From Methanoregula sp. PtaB.Bin085 (GTDB lineage: Archaea > Halobacteriota > Methanomicrobia > Methanomicrobiales > Methanospirillaceae): a stretch of DNA of 41,082 nucleotides. The notes below the pieces were generated by a model, which saw only the letters and a program-made list of their open reading frames with translations, searched no databases and had not been told where the DNA came from. The DNA lies in assembly GCF_002067035.1 (NCBI RefSeq), contig NZ_MVQB01000060.1, positions 167,499 to 208,580 of the forward strand. Direction: 5' to 3'. The position numbers were made by a program, and so were the translations under genes. Positions 2,940-36,077 of this stretch are shown one piece after another. Positions within the stretch are counted from its first letter, which is position 1. Each line of letters opens with the position of its first letter.

Positions 2940-3854
2940 ATGGAACATATTGTCTTTGGCATTGGAATTACTGCATTGACAGGAGCTCTTGCCACCGTAG
3001 CCGGCTCTGCAGAGGATACTGAATCCAACATCGGGTCCCAGGGTGACCCGAACTCACAGGTTCAGCTTGCCCCGCAGATGGGATTCCTGCACCGCATCTT
3101 CAACAAGGCGGTTGCCGGTGAACCCCCGGCATACGGACTCTGGTGCTGTCTTGGCGCCGGACTCGCATGGGCATTCATGGCGATGCAACTCAACGCGGTT
3201 CTCGCAATCGTTCTCGGCTGTGTTCTCGCAACATTCGTCCAGGGCGTCTATGCAACCACCGCTTACCTGGGCAGGACTGCAAGTCTTGCCAAGTTCGGGC
3301 AGCCGGTCTACGTGGACGTCCTCAAGTCCATGACCTCGGTTACCATGGCACATGCCTTTATCGCAATATTCTGTACCGTTACAATCTGCTACCTGATCAA
3401 CACCGGCCTGGGACACCCGTTCCCGCTGCCGCTGCTCGGACTGATCTGGGGCATTGCACTCGGTGCAGCAGGCTCTGCGACAGGCAACCCGTACTACGGC
3501 AAGGAACGCCAGTACCAGAACCAGAAGTTCGGTGCCGGTGTCCCGATCTCCGCATCCGGTAACATCGTCCGGTATGCCGAGGCAGGCGAGCGGAACTCGA
3601 TCGACAATGGGTTCTTCACCCACAAGATCGGCGGTTCTGCATCCGGTATCTGTTTCGGCCTGATTGTCTTCCTTGAACTCTGGCGTACCGTCCTCTTTGA
3701 GAGCCTGCCATTCCCGGCCCTTGGGCCCGGCTGGTATGCAATCTTCGTCGGTATTGTCATGATCCTTATCTTCACGGCAATCGACCGGACCATTGAGAAC
3801 TGGGCCCGCAGGAACTTCGGACCCTACACGGAAGTCAAGGAGGCATCCTCATGA
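2940..3854 (+). CDS. mtrE: Tetrahydromethanopterin S-methyltransferase subunit E
   Basis: MtrE is one of three multi-span membrane subunits (C, D, E) of the Na+-pumping methyltransferase that moves the methyl group of methyl-H4MPT (or the sarcinapterin form) to coenzyme M. The 304-residue protein has about six hydrophobic helices and family-typical blocks such as GNPYYGKERQYQNQKFGAG around residues 181-199 and the SIDNGFFTHKIGG region near 220-232. It is the first gene of the operon, as in other methanogens. GGGAGGAGG lies just upstream of the ATG. Its stop overlaps the mtrD start by 4 bases, which suggests coupled translation. Confidence 0.97.
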   Translation: MEHIVFGIGITALTGALATVAGSAEDTESNIGSQGDPNSQVQLAPQMGFLHRIFNKAVAGEPPAYGLWCCLGAGLAWAFMAMQLNAVLAIVLGCVLATFVQGVYATTAYLGRTASLAKFGQPVYVDVLKSMTSVTMAHAFIAIFCTVTICYLINTGLGHPFPLPLLGLIWGIALGAAGSATGNPYYGKERQYQNQKFGAGVPISASGNIVRYAEAGERNSIDNGFFTHKIGGSASGICFGLIVFLELWRTVLFESLPFPALGPGWYAIFVGIVMILIFTAIDRTIENWARRNFGPYTEVKEASS

Positions 3855-4693
3855 GCGCAGTTGCAGCAAAGCCCGCAGCAGGCGGCGCAATGAACCCGGC
3901 CGCCATGGCAGTCGGTGCAGTTCTGACACTCATCCTCATTGGCATCTGTTACGTCATGGCACCGCCCGTTGCCCTCATGGCGCTCATCGGCGTCGTCGTC
4001 GGCGGCGTGCTGATCGGCTTTGGTACCCACTTCGTCCCGGTCGGTGGCGCTCCTGCCGCCATGGGACAGGCTCCCGGTATCGCAACCGGTGTTGCGATGC
4101 TCGCAGCAGGTGCGGGTCTTGCAGGGCTGTTCGGCGGCGCATGGGCAGCTGAGCAGGGCCTTGTGGTAGCGGTCGTTACCGGTGGTGTCGGCGGCGGCCT
4201 CATGATGGCAATCACCTGCATGATGGTGAACTTCGTCTACGTTTTCGGCATGGGTATTCCCTCGGCATCCGGTAAGGTTGCAAAGGACCCGATCACCGGA
4301 GACACCCAGGCAGAATACAAGTCCCAGGGAACGGAAGGTCACGGCCTGCCATTCATCTCATTCGTCGGCGGCGTGATCGGTGGTCTCCTTGGCGGTGCCG
4401 GCGGTACGCTCATCTACATCGAGCTCCTTGAACTCTACAAGGTCACGCTCCCGACCCTGATGGGCGCTCCTGAAGCACAGATAATGCCAATCGCAGTCTC
4501 CGCTGCAGGTATGTTCGCCGTTGGTCTCTTCCTCGTGAATGCGGTGCTCACGGCATACAACATCACGGGTACTATCGAAGGACCCCACGACCCGAAATTC
4601 AGCCGCTGGCCCCGGTCAATCGTTGCTTCCGCAGCTGCATCGGCACTCTGCGGACTGGTAGCGATCCTCATCGTGGTGCCCCTGCCAATCTGA
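3851..4693 (+). CDS. mtrD: Tetrahydromethanopterin S-methyltransferase subunit D
   Basis: MtrD is a 280-residue integral membrane subunit of the Mtr complex. It is dominated by Gly/Ala-rich helices, with the soluble loop GMGIPSASGKVAKDP near residue 135 that is typical of the family. Together with MtrC and MtrE it forms the membrane part linked to sodium translocation (family knowledge). AAGGAGG inside the end of mtrE precedes the ATG, and the gene overlaps mtrE by 4 bases. The stop is 10 bases upstream of the preferred mtrC start. Confidence 0.96.
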   Translation: MSAVAAKPAAGGAMNPAAMAVGAVLTLILIGICYVMAPPVALMALIGVVVGGVLIGFGTHFVPVGGAPAAMGQAPGIATGVAMLAAGAGLAGLFGGAWAAEQGLVVAVVTGGVGGGLMMAITCMMVNFVYVFGMGIPSASGKVAKDPITGDTQAEYKSQGTEGHGLPFISFVGGVIGGLLGGAGGTLIYIELLELYKVTLPTLMGAPEAQIMPIAVSAAGMFAVGLFLVNAVLTAYNITGTIEGPHDPKFSRWPRSIVASAAASALCGLVAILIVVPLPI

Positions 4694-4703
4694 GGTGGAA
4701 AAG

Positions 4704-5564
4704 ATGTCAGTCAAAGTAGAAGTAATCGAAGGCGGTGTCCCCCACAATACAATCATGATCGCGGGCATCGTCTGCACGCTCGTGTGCATCTACCTCACGT
4801 ATCTCAACACCTTCTCGCCGGTACCCCTGTTCTCCTTCTTCGGGGGACTTGCGGTTGTCGCGGCATTAATCTGGGGTAGCCACACCATCAAGGTGCTCTG
4901 CAGTTACGGTATCGGTACAGGTGTACCATCAGCGGGTATGATCGCATTCGGTTCCGGTGTCATCGCGATGCTGCTCGCAACACGGGTAAGCAATGTCCTG
5001 CTCGCACCGATTGTTGCGGTCATCCTTGCGGCCGTCATCGGCTTCATTCTCGGGTACCTTGCCAACAACGTCCTGAACATGAAGATCCCGGCCATGGTGC
5101 AGGCGCTCACCGAGATGGCTGTTGTCGGTGCACTGACCCTCATGGGATTCGCGGCACTGATCTCCGGTGTATTCACGTTCCAGGGCCTGACAACCGGCTC
5201 GGTAACGTTCCTGGGCATGGCACTTCAGACACACCAGCAGACCTTCATCGGAGGCGGACTGATTGCCGTCGCGTTCCTGCTCGGTGCCATCGCAATCCAG
5301 CACCCGTTCAACGCGTGCCTCGGCCCCGGCTGGAAACAGGACCGCATGCTCATGCTCACCGCAGAGTGCGGATTTTTAAGCATGATCGTCGCTGCTGTCA
5401 TGTCGTTTGCCCTGATCACGGTCAGCCCCATCCCGTCAATACTCTCGCTGCTCATTGCCATCATCGGCTGGGTCTATACCTACACCCAGTACATGGAAAT
5501 GTCCAAGCGCGATGCTGCTGCATGGCTTGATGCGAAGATGATACCGGAAACGGAGGGACACTAA
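4704..5564 (+). CDS. mtrC: Tetrahydromethanopterin S-methyltransferase subunit C
   Basis: MtrC is a third polytopic membrane subunit of Mtr; this one has 286 residues and about seven or eight hydrophobic segments. The stretch HPFNACLGPGWKQDR near residue 203 is family-typical. An upstream GTG at 4695 is in frame, but the ribosome binding site GAGGTGG at 4692-4698 overlaps that codon and is well spaced for the ATG at 4704, so 4704 is chosen. The gene is followed by mtrB after 2 bases. Confidence 0.95.
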   Translation: MSVKVEVIEGGVPHNTIMIAGIVCTLVCIYLTYLNTFSPVPLFSFFGGLAVVAALIWGSHTIKVLCSYGIGTGVPSAGMIAFGSGVIAMLLATRVSNVLLAPIVAVILAAVIGFILGYLANNVLNMKIPAMVQALTEMAVVGALTLMGFAALISGVFTFQGLTTGSVTFLGMALQTHQQTFIGGGLIAVAFLLGAIAIQHPFNACLGPGWKQDRMLMLTAECGFLSMIVAAVMSFALITVSPIPSILSLLIAIIGWVYTYTQYMEMSKRDAAAWLDAKMIPETEGH

Positions 5565-5566
5565 CT

Positions 5567-5866
5567 ATGGCATACATCCAGGTACTCCCTGAATTCGGCC
5601 TTGTCGCCGACCCCGTTGCCGGCATTATTACTACCGCCGGCGAATCCTACTCGCCCGTCATCGAGAAGGTCGGCATCCTCGAAGCAGTCAGCGACGACCT
5701 CGTCAACATGCTCTCGGGAGAAGGCAACCTGCTCGCATCATTCCCGGGCAGAGAGCACAACCTCAAGATTGCCGGTACCATGACCTCGTTCTGGTACGGG
5801 CTTGCAATCGGGCTGTTCGTAGCCGGTATCATTGCATTCCAGCTGATCAAGCCAGGGGTGATCTAA
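5567..5866 (+). CDS. mtrB: Tetrahydromethanopterin S-methyltransferase subunit B
   Basis: MtrB is a 99-residue subunit with a soluble N-terminal part and a single C-terminal membrane helix at about residues 73-93 (family layout: one anchor helix in the central stalk of the complex). It starts MAYIQVLPEFG, typical of the family. GGAGGGACAC upstream serves as ribosome binding site. It sits between mtrC and mtrA, as in other methanogens. Confidence 0.96.
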   Translation: MAYIQVLPEFGLVADPVAGIITTAGESYSPVIEKVGILEAVSDDLVNMLSGEGNLLASFPGREHNLKIAGTMTSFWYGLAIGLFVAGIIAFQLIKPGVI

Positions 5867-5869
5867 ACC

Positions 5870-6396
5870 ATGGCAAACAAGAAATCACCGGCAAGCGGCT
5901 GGCCGCTCATCAAGGGTGACTTCCACTCGGGAGACGCCAACAGCCCTGTCGCTGTCGTCACCATGGGTTCACACCTCGACGAGCAGGGCATCTGCGATGC
6001 GGGCGCCGCACTCTGCGGCTCCTGTAAGACCGAAAACCTCGGTCTCGAGAAGGTTATCGCCAACGTCATCGCCAACCCGAACATCAGGTTCCTCCTCCTC
6101 TGCGGTACCGAAGTCAAGGGACACCTCTCCGGCCAGACACTCGTCGCCCTCCACAAGGGCGGGGTCAAGGAAGGAAGGGTCGTCGGCGCAGAAGGCGCTA
6201 TCCCCTTCATCGAAAACTTAAAAGACGACGCCATCAAGCGCTTCCAGGAACAGGTCGAAGTCGTCAACATCATGGAGTCCGAGGATCTGAACGCCATCAA
6301 GGCAAAGATCAACGAACTCAAGGGCAAAGACCCGGGCGCTATCGCTGCTGACGCAATGGTCGTCGAAGTCAAGGAAGCCGCCGGCGGCGGTGCCGA
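5870..6396 (+). repeat. 527-bp direct repeat, copy 1 (MtrA corrinoid domain)
   Basis: Compared base by base with 6811-7337 (offset 941), this block differs at one position: g at 6001 against a at 6942, a silent change in an Ala codon. Identity starts at the ATG and stops abruptly after the codon for Ala175 plus two bases. A GGGGTGATC ribosome-binding sequence precedes both copies. Confidence 0.98.
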
Positions 6397-6595
6397 GGAA
6401 GCTGGCGGGGAAGTCCGTCCGCTCTCCGGCGAGATGGCACTCATCACCGCACGCATGAAGGTCATCGAGAAGATGGTCGTGGATATCGGATACCGGGACA
6501 AGTTTGCAGCCGGGGTCTATGCCGGGAAGATCGAAGGTCTCATGATTGGACTGATCGTTTCGTTCGCCCTGGTTGGATTCCTGATGATGGGGTGA
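5870..6595 (+). CDS. mtrA: Tetrahydromethanopterin S-methyltransferase subunit A (corrinoid subunit, full length)
   Basis: MtrA carries the 5-hydroxybenzimidazolyl cobamide that accepts the methyl group from MtrH and donates it to coenzyme M. Residues 1-176 form the corrinoid domain; His85 in EVKGHLSGQ corresponds to the conserved cobalt-ligating His (His84 in the well-studied homologue). A Glu/Gly-rich linker follows, then a C-terminal amphipathic segment and membrane helix (about residues 216-240). The length of 241 is normal. GGGGTGATC upstream is an excellent ribosome binding site. Bases 5870-6396 are almost identical to 6811-7337 in the MtrA-MtrG fusion downstream, so this gene is one of two corrinoid-domain genes in the operon. 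Confidence 0.97.
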
Positions 6596-6601
6596 TACAC
6601 A

Positions 6602-6805
6602 ATGGCAGAAGAAGCTAAATCAACAGGACCCGTCAGGATGGTTGCAATCGACAACATGGTGGAGAGCATCCGCTACAAGTCACAGATCCTGGCAAGGACG
6701 AACAAGATCGACTCGGCAGTCTCGGCATCGGGCCTCGTCGGGTTCGTGGCCGGCCTGCTCACAGCACTGCTCATGATCGTGCTGCCGGCAATTCTGATGG
6801 GGTGA
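6602..6805 (+). CDS. mtrF: Tetrahydromethanopterin S-methyltransferase subunit F
   Basis: MtrF is a 67-residue subunit with a soluble N-terminal segment containing the family block [14 protein letters not shown] (residues 20-33) and one C-terminal membrane helix. By family knowledge it resembles the C-terminal anchor of MtrA; here both end in a helix followed by a short MG tail. GGGGTGAT overlapping the end of mtrA precedes the ATG. The position between mtrA and the mtrG-containing gene is canonical. Confidence 0.93.
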
Positions 6806-6810
6806 TCAAG

Positions 6811-7337
6811 ATGGCAAACAAGAAATCACCGGCAAGCGGCTGGCCGCTCATCAAGGGTGACTTCCACTCGGGAGACGCCAACAGCCCTGTCGCTGTCGTC
6901 ACCATGGGTTCACACCTCGACGAGCAGGGCATCTGCGATGCAGGCGCCGCACTCTGCGGCTCCTGTAAGACCGAAAACCTCGGTCTCGAGAAGGTTATCG
7001 CCAACGTCATCGCCAACCCGAACATCAGGTTCCTCCTCCTCTGCGGTACCGAAGTCAAGGGACACCTCTCCGGCCAGACACTCGTCGCCCTCCACAAGGG
7101 CGGGGTCAAGGAAGGAAGGGTCGTCGGCGCAGAAGGCGCTATCCCCTTCATCGAAAACTTAAAAGACGACGCCATCAAGCGCTTCCAGGAACAGGTCGAA
7201 GTCGTCAACATCATGGAGTCCGAGGATCTGAACGCCATCAAGGCAAAGATCAACGAACTCAAGGGCAAAGACCCGGGCGCTATCGCTGCTGACGCAATGG
7301 TCGTCGAAGTCAAGGAAGCCGCCGGCGGCGGTGCCGA
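6811..7337 (+). repeat. 527-bp direct repeat, copy 2 (MtrA corrinoid domain)
   Basis: This is the second copy of 5870-6396, with one silent difference (a at 6942). It begins at the ATG and ends where the reading frame passes into the MtrG part. Confidence 0.98.
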
Positions 7338-7551
7338 AGTCGGCGCTGCGAGTGCAAACCCCCAGTTCCTCGAGATTGAGAAGAGGCTCGACAAGATTGA
7401 GAAGAAGATCGAGTTCGTGGATGCGGAGATTGCGCAGCGTGTTGGACGAAAGATTGGACGGGATATCGGTATACTGTACGGCCTCATTGCAGGCGTCTTT
7501 GTATTCGTTATACTGTTGTTCCTGTACCAGAAACTGATGGGAATGCTCTAA
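6811..7551 (+). CDS. MtrA corrinoid domain fused to MtrG (second corrinoid subunit)
   Basis: The 246-residue protein has two parts. Residues 1-176 are the MtrA corrinoid domain, identical in amino acids to the upstream mtrA, including His85. After a short Ala/Gly linker, residues about 187-246 are MtrG: a charged helix ([16 protein letters not shown]), the [16 protein letters not shown] block and one membrane helix. No separate mtrG exists in the operon, so this fusion takes its place between mtrF and mtrH. GGTGATC upstream supports the ATG at 6811; a GTG at 6802 is less likely. If made and assembled, the complex would carry a second cobamide-binding domain on its MtrG stalk. Misassembly is the main alternative. 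Confidence 0.93.
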
Positions 7552-7568: not shown

Positions 7569-8606
7569 ATGTTCAGATTTGAAAAAGAACAGAGTGTCTG
7601 GGACTTCAACGGCACCATGATTGGTGGACAGCCCGGTGAATACCCGACCGTGCTCGGTGCTTCGATCTTCTACAACAAGCACGAGTGTGTGCTCGACGAT
7701 CACAAGGGAACGATCGACAAGGCAAAGGCAGAAGCGCTGTGGAACCGCTGCCAGGTCCTCTCGGACATGACCGGTATCCCGCACTTCATCCAGATCATTG
7801 CGGAATACGGCGAAGCGTTCGAGAGCTACTTCAGCTGGTTCGACTCGATTGACAACAAGACCGCATTCCTGATGGACTCGTCGGCACCCAAGGCGCTTGC
7901 ACATGCGTGCAAGTACGTCACGGATGTCGGTCTCGCCAACCGTGCGATCTACAACTCGATCAACGGTTCGATTCCGCCCGAGAACATCGAGGCACTCAAG
8001 AAGAGTGACGTCGATGCTGCAATCGTTCTCGCTTTCAACCCTGGCGACCCGTCGGTTGCCGGCCGCGAGAAGGTTCTGACCGAAGGTGGCGTTGCAGGAC
8101 AGGCAAAGGGTATGCTTGCTATCGCAGAAGAATGCGGTATCAAGCGCCCGATCCTCGACACTGCAGCAACCCCGCTCGGCCTCGGCTCCGGCGGAGCATA
8201 CCGTGAGATCCTTGCGTGCAAGGCAATCCACGGCTACCCGACCGGTGGTGCATACCACAACATGACCGTTTCCTGGACCTGGCTCAAGCGCTGGAAGGGG
8301 ACCTCGAAGACCCCCTCTGTACTCGCAGACGGTTACAAGGGCAAGGACGAGCTGCTCAAGCAGATGTCCCACCACTACCTCGGCGGCATGGAAGGCATCA
8401 AGCAGGCCGCCTGGTCCGCACCCGATATTGGCTGCAACATGATTGCATCCACGCTCGGGGCAGATCTCATCATGTACGGACCTATCGAGAACGTCGAAGC
8501 AATGATCACTGCACAGGCCTACACGGACATCACTGTCCTCGAGGCCACCCGTCAGCTCGGCATCGAGTGCAAGGCGCCAAGCCACCCAATCTTCAAACTC
8601 ATCTAA
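7569..8606 (+). CDS. mtrH: Tetrahydromethanopterin S-methyltransferase subunit H
   Basis: MtrH is the peripheral catalytic subunit that transfers the methyl group from methyl-tetrahydromethanopterin to the cob(I)amide of MtrA; it has a TIM-barrel methyltransferase fold (family knowledge). The 345-residue protein starts MFRFEKEQSVWDF and has the family region SINGSIPPENIEALK at about residues 136-150. It is soluble, with no membrane segments. GGAGGTG precedes the ATG. It is the last gene of the operon, as usual, and is followed by a T-tract. Confidence 0.97.
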   Translation: MFRFEKEQSVWDFNGTMIGGQPGEYPTVLGASIFYNKHECVLDDHKGTIDKAKAEALWNRCQVLSDMTGIPHFIQIIAEYGEAFESYFSWFDSIDNKTAFLMDSSAPKALAHACKYVTDVGLANRAIYNSINGSIPPENIEALKKSDVDAAIVLAFNPGDPSVAGREKVLTEGGVAGQAKGMLAIAEECGIKRPILDTAATPLGLGSGGAYREILACKAIHGYPTGGAYHNMTVSWTWLKRWKGTSKTPSVLADGYKGKDELLKQMSHHYLGGMEGIKQAAWSAPDIGCNMIASTLGADLIMYGPIENVEAMITAQAYTDITVLEATRQLGIECKAPSHPIFKLI

Positions 8607-10650: not shown

Positions 10651-11172
10651 TTATAATTCCAGAGGCTGGAATCCGTTCTTTAATACCTTACCGAACTGAA
10701 GCCGGATCTTGGGATCCAAGGCACAGACCGGGCATTTGTAATCATCGGGGAGATCTTCGAATTTCGTGCCGGGTTTTATACCGCGGTGAGGTTCCCCGCG
10801 CTTTTCATCGTAGATGTAATTACACATCGAACAGATGTACCGGGTTGCCCGCCATTCCTCGAATCCCCATTTGCCAATCCTGCCCTTCCCCTGCTGCCCG
10901 CACACCGGGCAGACATAGGTGTCCGGAAGATCCTCAAACGCCGTACCGGCAGGGATGCCATTGTGGGGTTCGCCCCGTAATGGCGAATAGATATAGCCAC
11001 AGAGACGGCACCGGAAGCGGGCCATATCTTTTGACTTCCTTTGCACCGCTTTTTTTGCTGCCGGTTTTTTTGTCGAAGTGCCTTTTCTGGCCGCGACTGT
11101 TTTTTTTACCGTGACCGGTCGGGAGATCTTCTTTGCTGCCGGCTTCTTCGTCTTTGGAACCGCTTTAGCCAT
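10651..11172 (-). CDS. Double rubredoxin with basic Lys/Ala/Pro N-terminal tail
   Basis: Rubredoxins are small one-electron carriers with one iron held by four Cys. This 173-residue protein has two complete rubredoxin domains: Cys55/Cys58 with Cys88/Cys91, and Cys114/Cys117 with Cys147/Cys150, each with the G-x-P-x-G-T-x-F-E-D-L-P block between the Cys pairs. The first 50 residues are a disordered, strongly basic tail with repeated KKPAAKK, reminiscent of histone H1 tails. AGGTGAAGG precedes the ATG, and a TATA-like element lies at 11241-11255. In methanogens rubredoxin typically serves oxidative-stress enzymes; no partner gene is adjacent here. The tail may bind nucleic acid or another acidic partner (inference). 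Confidence 0.92.
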
Positions 11173-29336: not shown

Positions 29337-29872
29337 GTGTGAATCAATCCTTTCTGCGTGTAGGTTATTCTCATTGCGACACGTGTATGAGATTCATCCG
29401 AGATTGTGCGACGGTTCGCTTATCGCGAAAGCCAACACGCGGGAACCTGCAGTTTTTCTGTAAGGATACCTCCTGGAGGCCCGTAATAGTCCCGGGAGGA
29501 GATCGTACCAGTGATTCCTGCCTGTTTCTTGAGATGCACAACGGGACGTGATTGAACGTCCTGCTGGTGTGCACCAGCATTCCTGTCTCGCGGAAGAAGT
29601 TCCTGACGATAGCGCATCCCCTGGTGTTTCAGGGAAAAGGGCTCGTTGCACGAACGTCGGCCCGTTGCGCCCGGTCAGTTCCTACTCTGTCAGCCTGTTG
29701 TGACGAATCACAACTCCTTCTCGGTCTAATCCCCATCCGGGGATTCACCAATCGGGATTCACCTACGGCATAACCATCGATCCTGTGTCGGGAGATTCAG
29801 GTACGCCGTCAGCATGGCCATGAACGGTAAACCGTTCAGGGCACAGGTTCAGGTAAACCTCATATCGGCTTC
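29337..29872 (-). other. Hairpin-rich, apparently non-coding leader of the ribosomal protein operon
   Basis: No supportable gene is seen between the promoter at 29893-29907 and rpl3. The stretch holds many perfect inverted repeats: 7-bp stems with 4-base loops at 29697-29714 (loop UUCG on the minus RNA), 29728-29745 and 29821-29838; an 8-bp stem at 29562-29579; a 6-bp stem at 29544-29561; and 5-bp stems at 29415-29429, 29619-29634 and 29845-29860. They could fold in a long 5' leader, or in a separate small RNA. The strand is inferred from the promoter and rpl3. I do not recognise SRP RNA or RNase P RNA motifs in it. Confidence 0.6.
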
Positions 29873-33824: not shown

Positions 33825-36077
33825 ATGCGGATAATTGCTCTTGGACTCGGGGGGGCAGGTTGCAGGATCGTCAACAGCCTCTATGCGATAGACCGGCGCA
33901 GCAGCAGGGTGGCATGTGTCCAGGCTCTGGCTATCGATGTTGACGAAGAAACGATACGACAGCTGACTGCCCTCCCGGATAACGGGCGGATGTGTTTTTC
34001 CGCAGACACCGGTATCGCTGATCTGACCGGGTCAGAAATACCGACAGCCCCCATCGATATCAATGAGATCGTTTCCCGGGTCCAGAACCTTGAATCCGGT
34101 GAAAACGATGCAATTTTTCTCTGCTGCGGTCTTGGCGGAAGCATGGTGGATGTCGCCCCCCATATTATCGCAGGCCTGAGATCGTCTGTTGTTGAACCGA
34201 TATTCGGCCTTGTCACCCTTCCCTGCCTTGCTGAAGGAGAACGTATCTCGGGAAAAGCAGCGGATGATATCGATATGCTTTCTTCTCTGCTTGATGGTAT
34301 CATCGTGTTCGATAATGAGACCTGGCATAAAAAAATCAAGACGCAGAGAGCAAACCTCCCGAAAAAGGAGATGGGATTTGCGGAAAAGATCGGTCTCATT
34401 AAAAGCGAAAAACCCCTTCCTCCGGCACAGGCAACGTACCGGAACCTGAATGAGGCCATCGTACGACGGATCGGTCTCATACTTCGCGCGGGCGAATTCA
34501 GAGCTGACGGGGGTATCGATCTTGCAGAGGTCGTCCTGGATTCCGGCGAAGTACTCAACACGATGAGAGGCATGGGATTTATCACCATCGGGTATGCAGT
34601 CGAGAAACTACCCCACGACCCCCTTCGGTTCCTTTCGTGGCTGAAACCAGCAGGACTGAGTGATGAAGAACAGAAAAAAAGGGCTTCCCGTATTGTTGAG
34701 CTTGCAAAACAGGCGATTTATCATGAGATCTCCACACCCTGTGACCTGACCAGTGCCCATAAAGCTCTGGTGCTTATTGCCGGTCCCTCGCACGAACTCT
34801 CCATGAAAGGATTCATGACTGTCAGGAAATGGATTGACAGGAGCATTGCCGGGCTTGAGACACGGTCAGGAGATTATCCTGTCATGAACACAAAAAACGT
34901 GGCGATTATCGTCATGTTGTCCGGGCTCGAAAATATCCCCCGCATTACTGAGATCAAAGAGATCCGGTCCCAATCAAAACCCGGGAAACATGCAGGTCAG
35001 GCAGAAACCCCGGATGAAGGAATGGAACGTGTTCACCCGGTTATCAGGGATGATATGATTTCACTTCCAGCCCGTATGCCCAGATCCGATGACAGTGATC
35101 GCAGAACCCCTCCCGTCCATGAATCTCTTCCTGAGGAGTACGAAAACGAAACCCCGGCAAGGAAGCCGGAACAAATCCTGCAAAAAGAAGTCGCAGTTGA
35201 ACCGGCAATACCATTACCGCCGGTTCAACCAGAAATTCCCCGATCCGTTCCAACGGCAAGGAAGATGCCGGCACCCGAACCGCCAGCTGAACCAGAACCC
35301 CTGAGGACACCTGAAGTATTTGTACCTCCCTCCCGGCGTCGGGTCATTGTTGCTCACACAGAGAATGAACACGCTCATCACCATCCTTCGCACCCATTGC
35401 CAGCTCACGGAGGGCTTCGCCCTGGAAAGAGCAGTCCATCTGAACGCCATTTAACGGAAATATCCCCCCTGCATTCCGATCAGGACAGCCCGCCTGCCAA
35501 AGAAACAGAACGGCAGAGAATTGAACGGGAGTTACGCCGGCAAAGATCGATGGCGATAGGTGTTGCTTCCCAGAAAAACACCCCTCAGGCCGGGAAAACC
35601 CCCGAAAAAAACATGGAGAGAAAGATCATCCAGAAAAGAACGCCTCATACAAAAACAGATGCAGAGGAGAAGATGCCTCACAAAGTGATCGAACCTGGAG
35701 AGATTGAGATCTCTTCTGACAAACGGACGGTCATCGTCGGAAAACGAAAATCTGCTCTCCTGCCACAGAATGCGCAGGACACATCGTCTCTCCAGGAGGA
35801 GAACATACCTCAGCATCCGGATGAGTCCGATGACGATAACAGAAGCGTAGAAATCAGGGACAGGATATTCCGGGCAAGGGACGAGATATTTACCGGGAAA
35901 GGAGTGAGAAAAACCACCCTCCCGCCGGCTCGGGATTCTACACTCCTCCATACCGAGCTGAAATCAAAGAAAAAAACCGTGGACAGAGAAGATGACGTTC
36001 ATGATACTGTCCTTCCGGAGACAGAGGATCGGGACACTCAAATCGGAAAAAATCGAATCAGGAAAGATAAATCATGA
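33825..36077 (+). CDS. Divergent FtsZ/tubulin-superfamily protein with long disordered tail
   Basis: Residues 1 to about 385 follow the FtsZ fold: T1 loop GLGGAGCRIVN (6-16), T4-like CGLGGSMVDVAPHIIAG (101-117), T5-like TLPCLAEGER (131-140), T6-like FDNETW (162-167) and the T7 acidic pair Asp232/Glu235 in GGIDLAEV. In canonical FtsZ the T4 motif is GGGTGTG; here it is GLGGSMVDV, so nucleotide binding may be changed, though the acidic T7 pair needed for hydrolysis is kept. Residues about 386-750 are a low-complexity tail rich in Pro, Glu, Lys and Arg, predicted disordered. Noncanonical FtsZ-like families in archaea and bacteria have been proposed to remodel membranes. The start is supported by GACTGATG only weakly. 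Confidence 0.78.
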   Translation: MRIIALGLGGAGCRIVNSLYAIDRRSSRVACVQALAIDVDEETIRQLTALPDNGRMCFSADTGIADLTGSEIPTAPIDINEIVSRVQNLESGENDAIFLCCGLGGSMVDVAPHIIAGLRSSVVEPIFGLVTLPCLAEGERISGKAADDIDMLSSLLDGIIVFDNETWHKKIKTQRANLPKKEMGFAEKIGLIKSEKPLPPAQATYRNLNEAIVRRIGLILRAGEFRADGGIDLAEVVLDSGEVLNTMRGMGFITIGYAVEKLPHDPLRFLSWLKPAGLSDEEQKKRASRIVELAKQAIYHEISTPCDLTSAHKALVLIAGPSHELSMKGFMTVRKWIDRSIAGLETRSGDYPVMNTKNVAIIVMLSGLENIPRITEIKEIRSQSKPGKHAGQAETPDEGMERVHPVIRDDMISLPARMPRSDDSDRRTPPVHESLPEEYENETPARKPEQILQKEVAVEPAIPLPPVQPEIPRSVPTARKMPAPEPPAEPEPLRTPEVFVPPSRRRVIVAHTENEHAHHHPSHPLPAHGGLRPGKSSPSERHLTEISPLHSDQDSPPAKETERQRIERELRRQRSMAIGVASQKNTPQAGKTPEKNMERKIIQKRTPHTKTDAEEKMPHKVIEPGEIEISSDKRTVIVGKRKSALLPQNAQDTSSLQEENIPQHPDESDDDNRSVEIRDRIFRARDEIFTGKGVRKTTLPPARDSTLLHTELKSKKKTVDREDDVHDTVLPETEDRDTQIGKNRIRKDKS

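Follow-up and report, generated by a model that had tools for sequence, protein, structure and literature searches.

An MtrA-MtrG fusion in the mtr operon of a Methanomicrobiales genome: gene conversion with mtrA-1 and a probable second corrinoid carrier

The mtr operon and its fusion gene

In methane formation from CO2, Mtr catalyzes the step that conserves energy by pumping Na+. The window (the whole stretch of DNA analyzed here, 41,082 nucleotides) contains a complete mtr operon on its plus strand, with the order mtrEDCBAF-AG-H, which is ordinary apart from AG. The fusion gene, mtrA-2b, is flanked by mtrF on one side and mtrH on the other, with mtrA-1 upstream of mtrF, and open reading frame (ORF) calls and Pfam matches place it at the coordinates and operon position at which it had been predicted. 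The genes, and the features of mtrA-1 and mtrA-2b referred to below, are as follows:

2940 to 3854, plus strand: mtrE (ORF call, Pfam)
3851 to 4693, plus strand: mtrD (ORF call, Pfam)
4695 to 5564, plus strand: mtrC (ORF call, Pfam)
5567 to 5866, plus strand: mtrB (ORF call, Pfam)
5870 to 6595, plus strand: mtrA-1, canonical MtrA with its own anchor (ORF, Pfam, NCBIfam)
5870 to 6396, plus strand: MtrA corrinoid domain copy 1, the repeat partner (repeat alignment)
6602 to 6805, plus strand: mtrF (ORF call, Pfam)
6801 to 6807, plus strand: GGTGATC, the ribosome-binding-like motif preceding the fusion; it overlaps the stop codon of mtrF (sequence)
6811 to 7551, plus strand: mtrA-2b, the MtrA-MtrG fusion gene, 246 aa (ORF, Pfam, NCBIfam)
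6811 to 7337, plus strand: MtrA corrinoid domain copy 2, homogenized with mtrA-1 (repeat alignment)
7063 to 7065, plus strand: codon of the cobalt-ligand His85 (alignment to Methanothermobacter marburgensis His84)
7327 to 7362, plus strand: linker, residues 173-184, of low model confidence (Pfam borders, predicted model)
7363 to 7548, plus strand: MtrG anchor, residues 185-246, one long predicted helix (Pfam, predicted model)
7569 to 8606, plus strand: mtrH (ORF call, Pfam)

The fusion is encoded in a single open frame running from the ATG at 6811 to the stop at 7551. Pfam recognizes both parts in the same protein (MtrA, PF04208, residues 4-172, 280 bits; MtrG, PF04210, residues 185-236, 82 bits), and NCBIfam agrees, bearing out the original prediction of an MtrA corrinoid domain, a linker, and MtrG in one frame. 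The cobalt-ligand histidine is likewise kept as predicted, His85 of the fusion aligning with His84 of M. marburgensis MtrA. The MtrG anchor, which had been described as complete-looking, is indeed present but lacks roughly the first ten positions of the profile: its match begins at about position 10-11, and those of stand-alone MtrGs outside the order mostly at 1-6. An anchor of the mtrA-1 type is absent from the fusion, MtrG sitting in its place, and a search of the host genome, in which the fusion was the single MtrG match, returned no second mtrG, stand-alone or otherwise.

Extending the ORF as far as possible would move its start to GTG 6802; this start was set aside, the GGTGATC motif just before ATG 6811 favoring the latter, which is also the start originally proposed. 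GGTGAT(C) occurs just upstream of the start in mtrA-1, mtrF, and the fusion alike; these motifs may represent ribosome-binding sites, which would fit separate translation starts of the three genes.

Elsewhere in the window, a gene at 33825-36077 (plus strand) encodes a CetZ-type tubulin of 750 aa, in which the recognized domains end near residue 380 and are followed by a long C-terminal region that no Pfam family matches. An L4-Archaeoglobi ribosomal leader (Rfam, 40.4 bits) lies at 29603-29678 (minus strand), just upstream of the gene for ribosomal protein L3 (28323-29336), and the gene at 10651-11172 (minus strand) encodes two rubredoxin domains after a lysine-rich N-terminal stretch.

Distribution and concerted evolution of the fusion

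The original prediction implied that the fusion was new; it was in fact described by Wang et al. in 2015 (PMC4632066), who reported two mtrA genes in Methanomicrobiales, the second being fused to mtrG and designated mtrA-2b, whereas the second mtrA of Methanococcales is fused to mtrF (mtrA-2a). Both mtrA-2a and mtrA-2b were found to be homogenized with mtrA-1 by long-lasting gene conversion, with a mean paralogue identity of 92.4% in Methanomicrobiales (PMC4632066), and the same concerted evolution of mtrA paralogues was recovered in a 2018 study (PMC6053082). The gene studied here is mtrA-2b, known and ordinary for its order: it is the same fusion, occupies the same slot downstream of mtrA-1 between mtrF and mtrH, contains a homogenized domain, and shows no essential difference from the published gene, the host being a further species with a tract that is 99.8% identical. 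The placement of the host in Methanomicrobiales follows from its nearest named matches, which are Methanoregula and relatives, and the genus-level and family-level genome groups agree.

In a class-level genome search, MtrG was detected in 179 of 232 genomes, with one match per listed genome, and loci were taken from about 80 of the 179. Sixty-six Methanomicrobiales genomes could be fully scored, that is, both MtrA copies were scorable on one contig, and all 66 display the order A1-F-A2G (mtrA-1, mtrF, fusion) with MtrG fused; 3 further single-contig genomes (L264-L266) agree, as does a locus with a truncated A1 (L157). Seven short MtrG frames within the order (in G125, G129, G167, G171, G197, G201, and G223) were considered as stand-alone mtrG genes and rejected, all of them lying at contig ends, and we found no genome of the order that keeps the MtrG anchor without the fused domain. 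Outside the order, within the same phylum, none of 83 MtrG-bearing genomes contains an MtrA-MtrG fusion; their MtrG frames measure only 56-143 aa and are therefore too short for an MtrA domain. The fusion, whose breadth of occurrence in Methanomicrobiales the original prediction had left to be established, thus extends throughout the order and marks it as an ancient feature, as published.

At the DNA level, mtrA-1 (5870-6396) and the fusion (6811-7337) agree at all but one of 527 bp (G at 6001, A at 6942), and this mismatch is silent (codon 44, GCG/GCA). The identity begins at the ATG and ends abruptly at both borders. A near-perfect repeat of this kind within a 63-contig draft genome could point to an assembly artefact or to a recent duplication private to the host genome, but the probability of either is negligible: a silent base distinguishes the two copies, the fusion has been published from complete genomes (PMC4632066), and the gene order is shared by all fully scored genomes of the order and by single-contig relatives. 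An artefact was rejected on the latter ground in particular: finished genomes on a single contig, from the host's own genus and family, have A1-F-A2G as well, and they also answer the concern, raised with the original prediction, that long reads might reveal a normal mtrG. In many fragmented relatives, contigs break inside the repeated domain, as expected from short-read assembly of near-identical repeats.

Across the 66 genomes, the A1 and A2 domains have a median DNA identity of 97.6% (minimum 79.1%), and orthologues average about 75%. In 51 of the 66 genomes, A1 and A2 group as sisters on the tree; across 1,000 label shuffles, the maximum was 4. The MtrA domains of the host are thus homogenized by gene conversion between the fusion and mtrA-1, and an ancient fusion kept in step by conversion explains the locus well. 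Conversion has lapsed in several lineages, whose synonymous distances are approximately 0.7-1.4. In the 12 diverged genomes, mtrA-1 and mtrA-2b share 79-85% of their nucleotides and 84-90% of their amino acids (loci L164, L175-L180, L196, L197, L206, L209, and L224), making these genomes useful for asking whether the two carriers specialize.

The fused corrinoid domain as a probable second shuttle

The fused domain evolves under purifying selection, with a median dN/dS of 0.10, equal to that of mtrA-1 (0.10), and the G anchor has a value of 0.07; in the 12 genomes in which conversion has lapsed, dN is 0.06-0.10 at dS of about 0.7-1.4. His85 is the same in A1 and A2 in 66/66 genomes, including the 12 diverged ones, and the same holds, again in all 66, for the residues predicted to contact MtrH and MtrCDE, the list of which was taken from the predicted contacts in PMC10998594. 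Glu55 and the GAI-F part of the conserved meander motif of MtrA (PMC4915002) are invariant in a 17-sequence fusion alignment; Glu55 of the fusion is the counterpart of Glu54, which holds the cobalt histidine (PMC4915002). A predicted model of the fusion, moderately confident overall (mean pLDDT 72.7), comprises a domain that matches solved MtrA with a TM score of 0.87-0.90, followed by a flexible, low-confidence linker and a 62-residue helix. A degenerate fusion domain was rejected on the basis of the purifying selection and of the kept histidine and contact residues. Part of this conservation could stem from gene conversion itself, although the diverged lineages speak against that reading.

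In the cryo-EM stalk, the A and G anchors form a closely associated couple (PMC10998594), so that domains carried by MtrG and by MtrA would have almost the same point of departure. Judged from its sequence, the fused domain most likely serves as a functional second cobamide shuttle, anchored next to the first. The original proposal of a second cobamide shuttle on the complex therefore stands with respect to the tethering of a second corrinoid domain, while its function as a shuttle finds indirect support in selection, contact residues, and the adjacency of the A and G anchors. Both mtrA paralogues have been reported as essential, with reference to a study in Methanococcus (PMC4632066), in which the second copy is an A-F rather than an A-G fusion. 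Although the fusion itself is published, a PDB sequence search returned no fusion-type Mtr structure, two Mtr structure papers searched for it, including PMC10998594, do not mention an MtrA-MtrG fusion, and a literature search yielded nothing relevant on purification, proteomics, or structure of Methanomicrobiales Mtr.

The fusion, its distribution, its homogenization, the purifying selection, and the kept catalytic and contact residues are all observed here, and we consider it likely that mtrA-2b produces an MtrA-MtrG subunit of the Na+-pumping Mtr complex that acts as a second shuttle. The gene replaces stand-alone mtrG, so that every complex built with the fusion would have, in addition to the corrinoid domain on the MtrA anchor, another on the MtrG anchor. 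Projected onto the published trimeric stalk, to which each protomer contributes a single anchor of A, B, F, and G, this would give 6 rather than 3 cobamide carriers per trimer, a stoichiometry extrapolated from structures solved in organisms without the fusion. Since anchors A and G lie side by side, the two domains would hang next to each other, and the second may take methyl groups from MtrH and hand them to the same MtrCDE site as MtrA-1. In most lineages, the domains would stay interchangeable through recurrent conversion with the neighboring mtrA-1. What we infer is that the second domain is loaded with cobamide and turns over, and that the complex assembles with this stoichiometry. A second carrier might, as originally suggested, also double the capacity for carrying methyl groups or make two independent contacts with MtrH possible. 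A whole order building Mtr with 2 corrinoid carriers per protomer would constitute a natural experiment on whether methyl shuttling limits Mtr.

Were the fused domain an idle passenger, the gene would be retained as the only source of MtrG, its corrinoid part staying intact mainly through repeated rewriting from mtrA-1, or else serving as a spare repair template for mtrA-1. The fusion being the only mtrG in the genome and the near identity of the domain to mtrA-1 in most genomes fit such a scenario, as does the proposal that conversion helps to purge harmful mutations, a Muller's-ratchet idea (PMC4632066). We nevertheless regard it as unlikely, given that the 12 genomes in which conversion has lapsed combine low dN with full retention of the histidine and contact residues and that the anchor was in no genome of the order found to have shed the domain. 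It is also conceivable, although quite improbable, that the carriers have specialized, one serving mainly MtrH and the other mainly MtrCDE, or that the fusion is used under other conditions. A1 and A2 of the diverged lineages do differ at recurring surface positions (near 3-6, 23-24, 118-121, and 140-164), but no contact residue is among the differences, and most lineages actively homogenize the two domains, the opposite of specializing.

Corrinoid domains on other stalk anchors

The canonical Mtr of M. marburgensis and Methanosarcina mazei (PDB 8q3v and 9qtq; PMC10998594, PMC12774963) has the same corrinoid domain, A/B/F/G anchors, MtrCDE, and MtrH but differs from the fusion type in that each protomer has a single corrinoid domain and MtrG stands alone. 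The mtrA-2a of Methanococcales and Methanocella arvoryzae likewise places a second, homogenized corrinoid domain on another stalk anchor beside mtrA-1, although here the domain is joined to MtrF, the stalk partner of MtrB, and the origin is considered independent (PMC4632066). In the EDCB[AF]FGH operons of TACK archaea, Methanoliparia, and ANME-1 (PMC9982363), the corrinoid domain also resides on an MtrF-type anchor; these operons are without mtrA-1, so the fused domain replaces MtrA, unlike in the operon described here.

Two families of the same phylum (f10 and f12; 17 genomes), which, judging from PMC9982363, are probably ANME-1 and a relative, have operons of the latter kind, without mtrA-1 and with the order C, B, an MtrA domain with an MtrF-type tail, a protein of 60-70 residues, G, and H. 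An example is locus L267 (854-1042 and 1043-1786, both minus strand), and L288-L303 have the same arrangement. A family search yielded one strong MtrA match per genome, the fused one, and in 4 of the 17 also a weaker MtrA homologue elsewhere. The 60-70 residue protein has been read as a duplicate mtrF (PMC9982363), and Pfam calls it MtrF, its MtrA model not reaching the anchor. When MtrA-anchor profiles are compared with MtrF profiles, however, the small protein scores as an MtrA anchor in 17/17 genomes, a result that holds with profiles trained only on genomes outside f10 and f12, and NCBIfam ranks MtrA above MtrF by a modest margin in 3/3 small proteins tested. Profile scores thus provide a strong lead, rather than proof, since the A and F anchors resemble each other, that the protein is a free MtrA anchor and not a duplicate MtrF. 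That assignment would suggest that a corrinoid domain can work from another stalk anchor while the MtrA anchor persists purely as a stalk component; by analogy with the ANME-1-like operon, whose corrinoid domain is on MtrF, a domain on another anchor is probably functional.

A broader generalization, to which we assign about even chances, is that the MtrA corrinoid domain is a portable module, the extra or only copy of which may sit on other anchors: on G in Methanomicrobiales, on F in Methanococcales and some Methanocella-like archaea, and on F as the sole operon carrier in ANME-1-like archaea, with the vacated MtrA anchor persisting as the 60-70 residue subunit. Methanomicrobiales trimers would then have 6 interchangeable carriers per 3 MtrCDE pumps.

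Outside Methanomicrobiales and Methanococcales, mtrA-1 plus an mtrA-F fusion was reported only for Methanocella arvoryzae (PMC4632066). In a Methanocella-like family (f14), mtrA-1 and an mtrA-F fusion occur together in 3 of 4 genomes (L258, L259, and L260), the fourth (L257) being without the fusion. One of these genomes, G260 (L259, G260:C212:6600-10200), carries 2 mtrG-like genes in tandem, and a second short mtrG-like match was observed on another contig of genome G390 (G390:C109:4103-4255).
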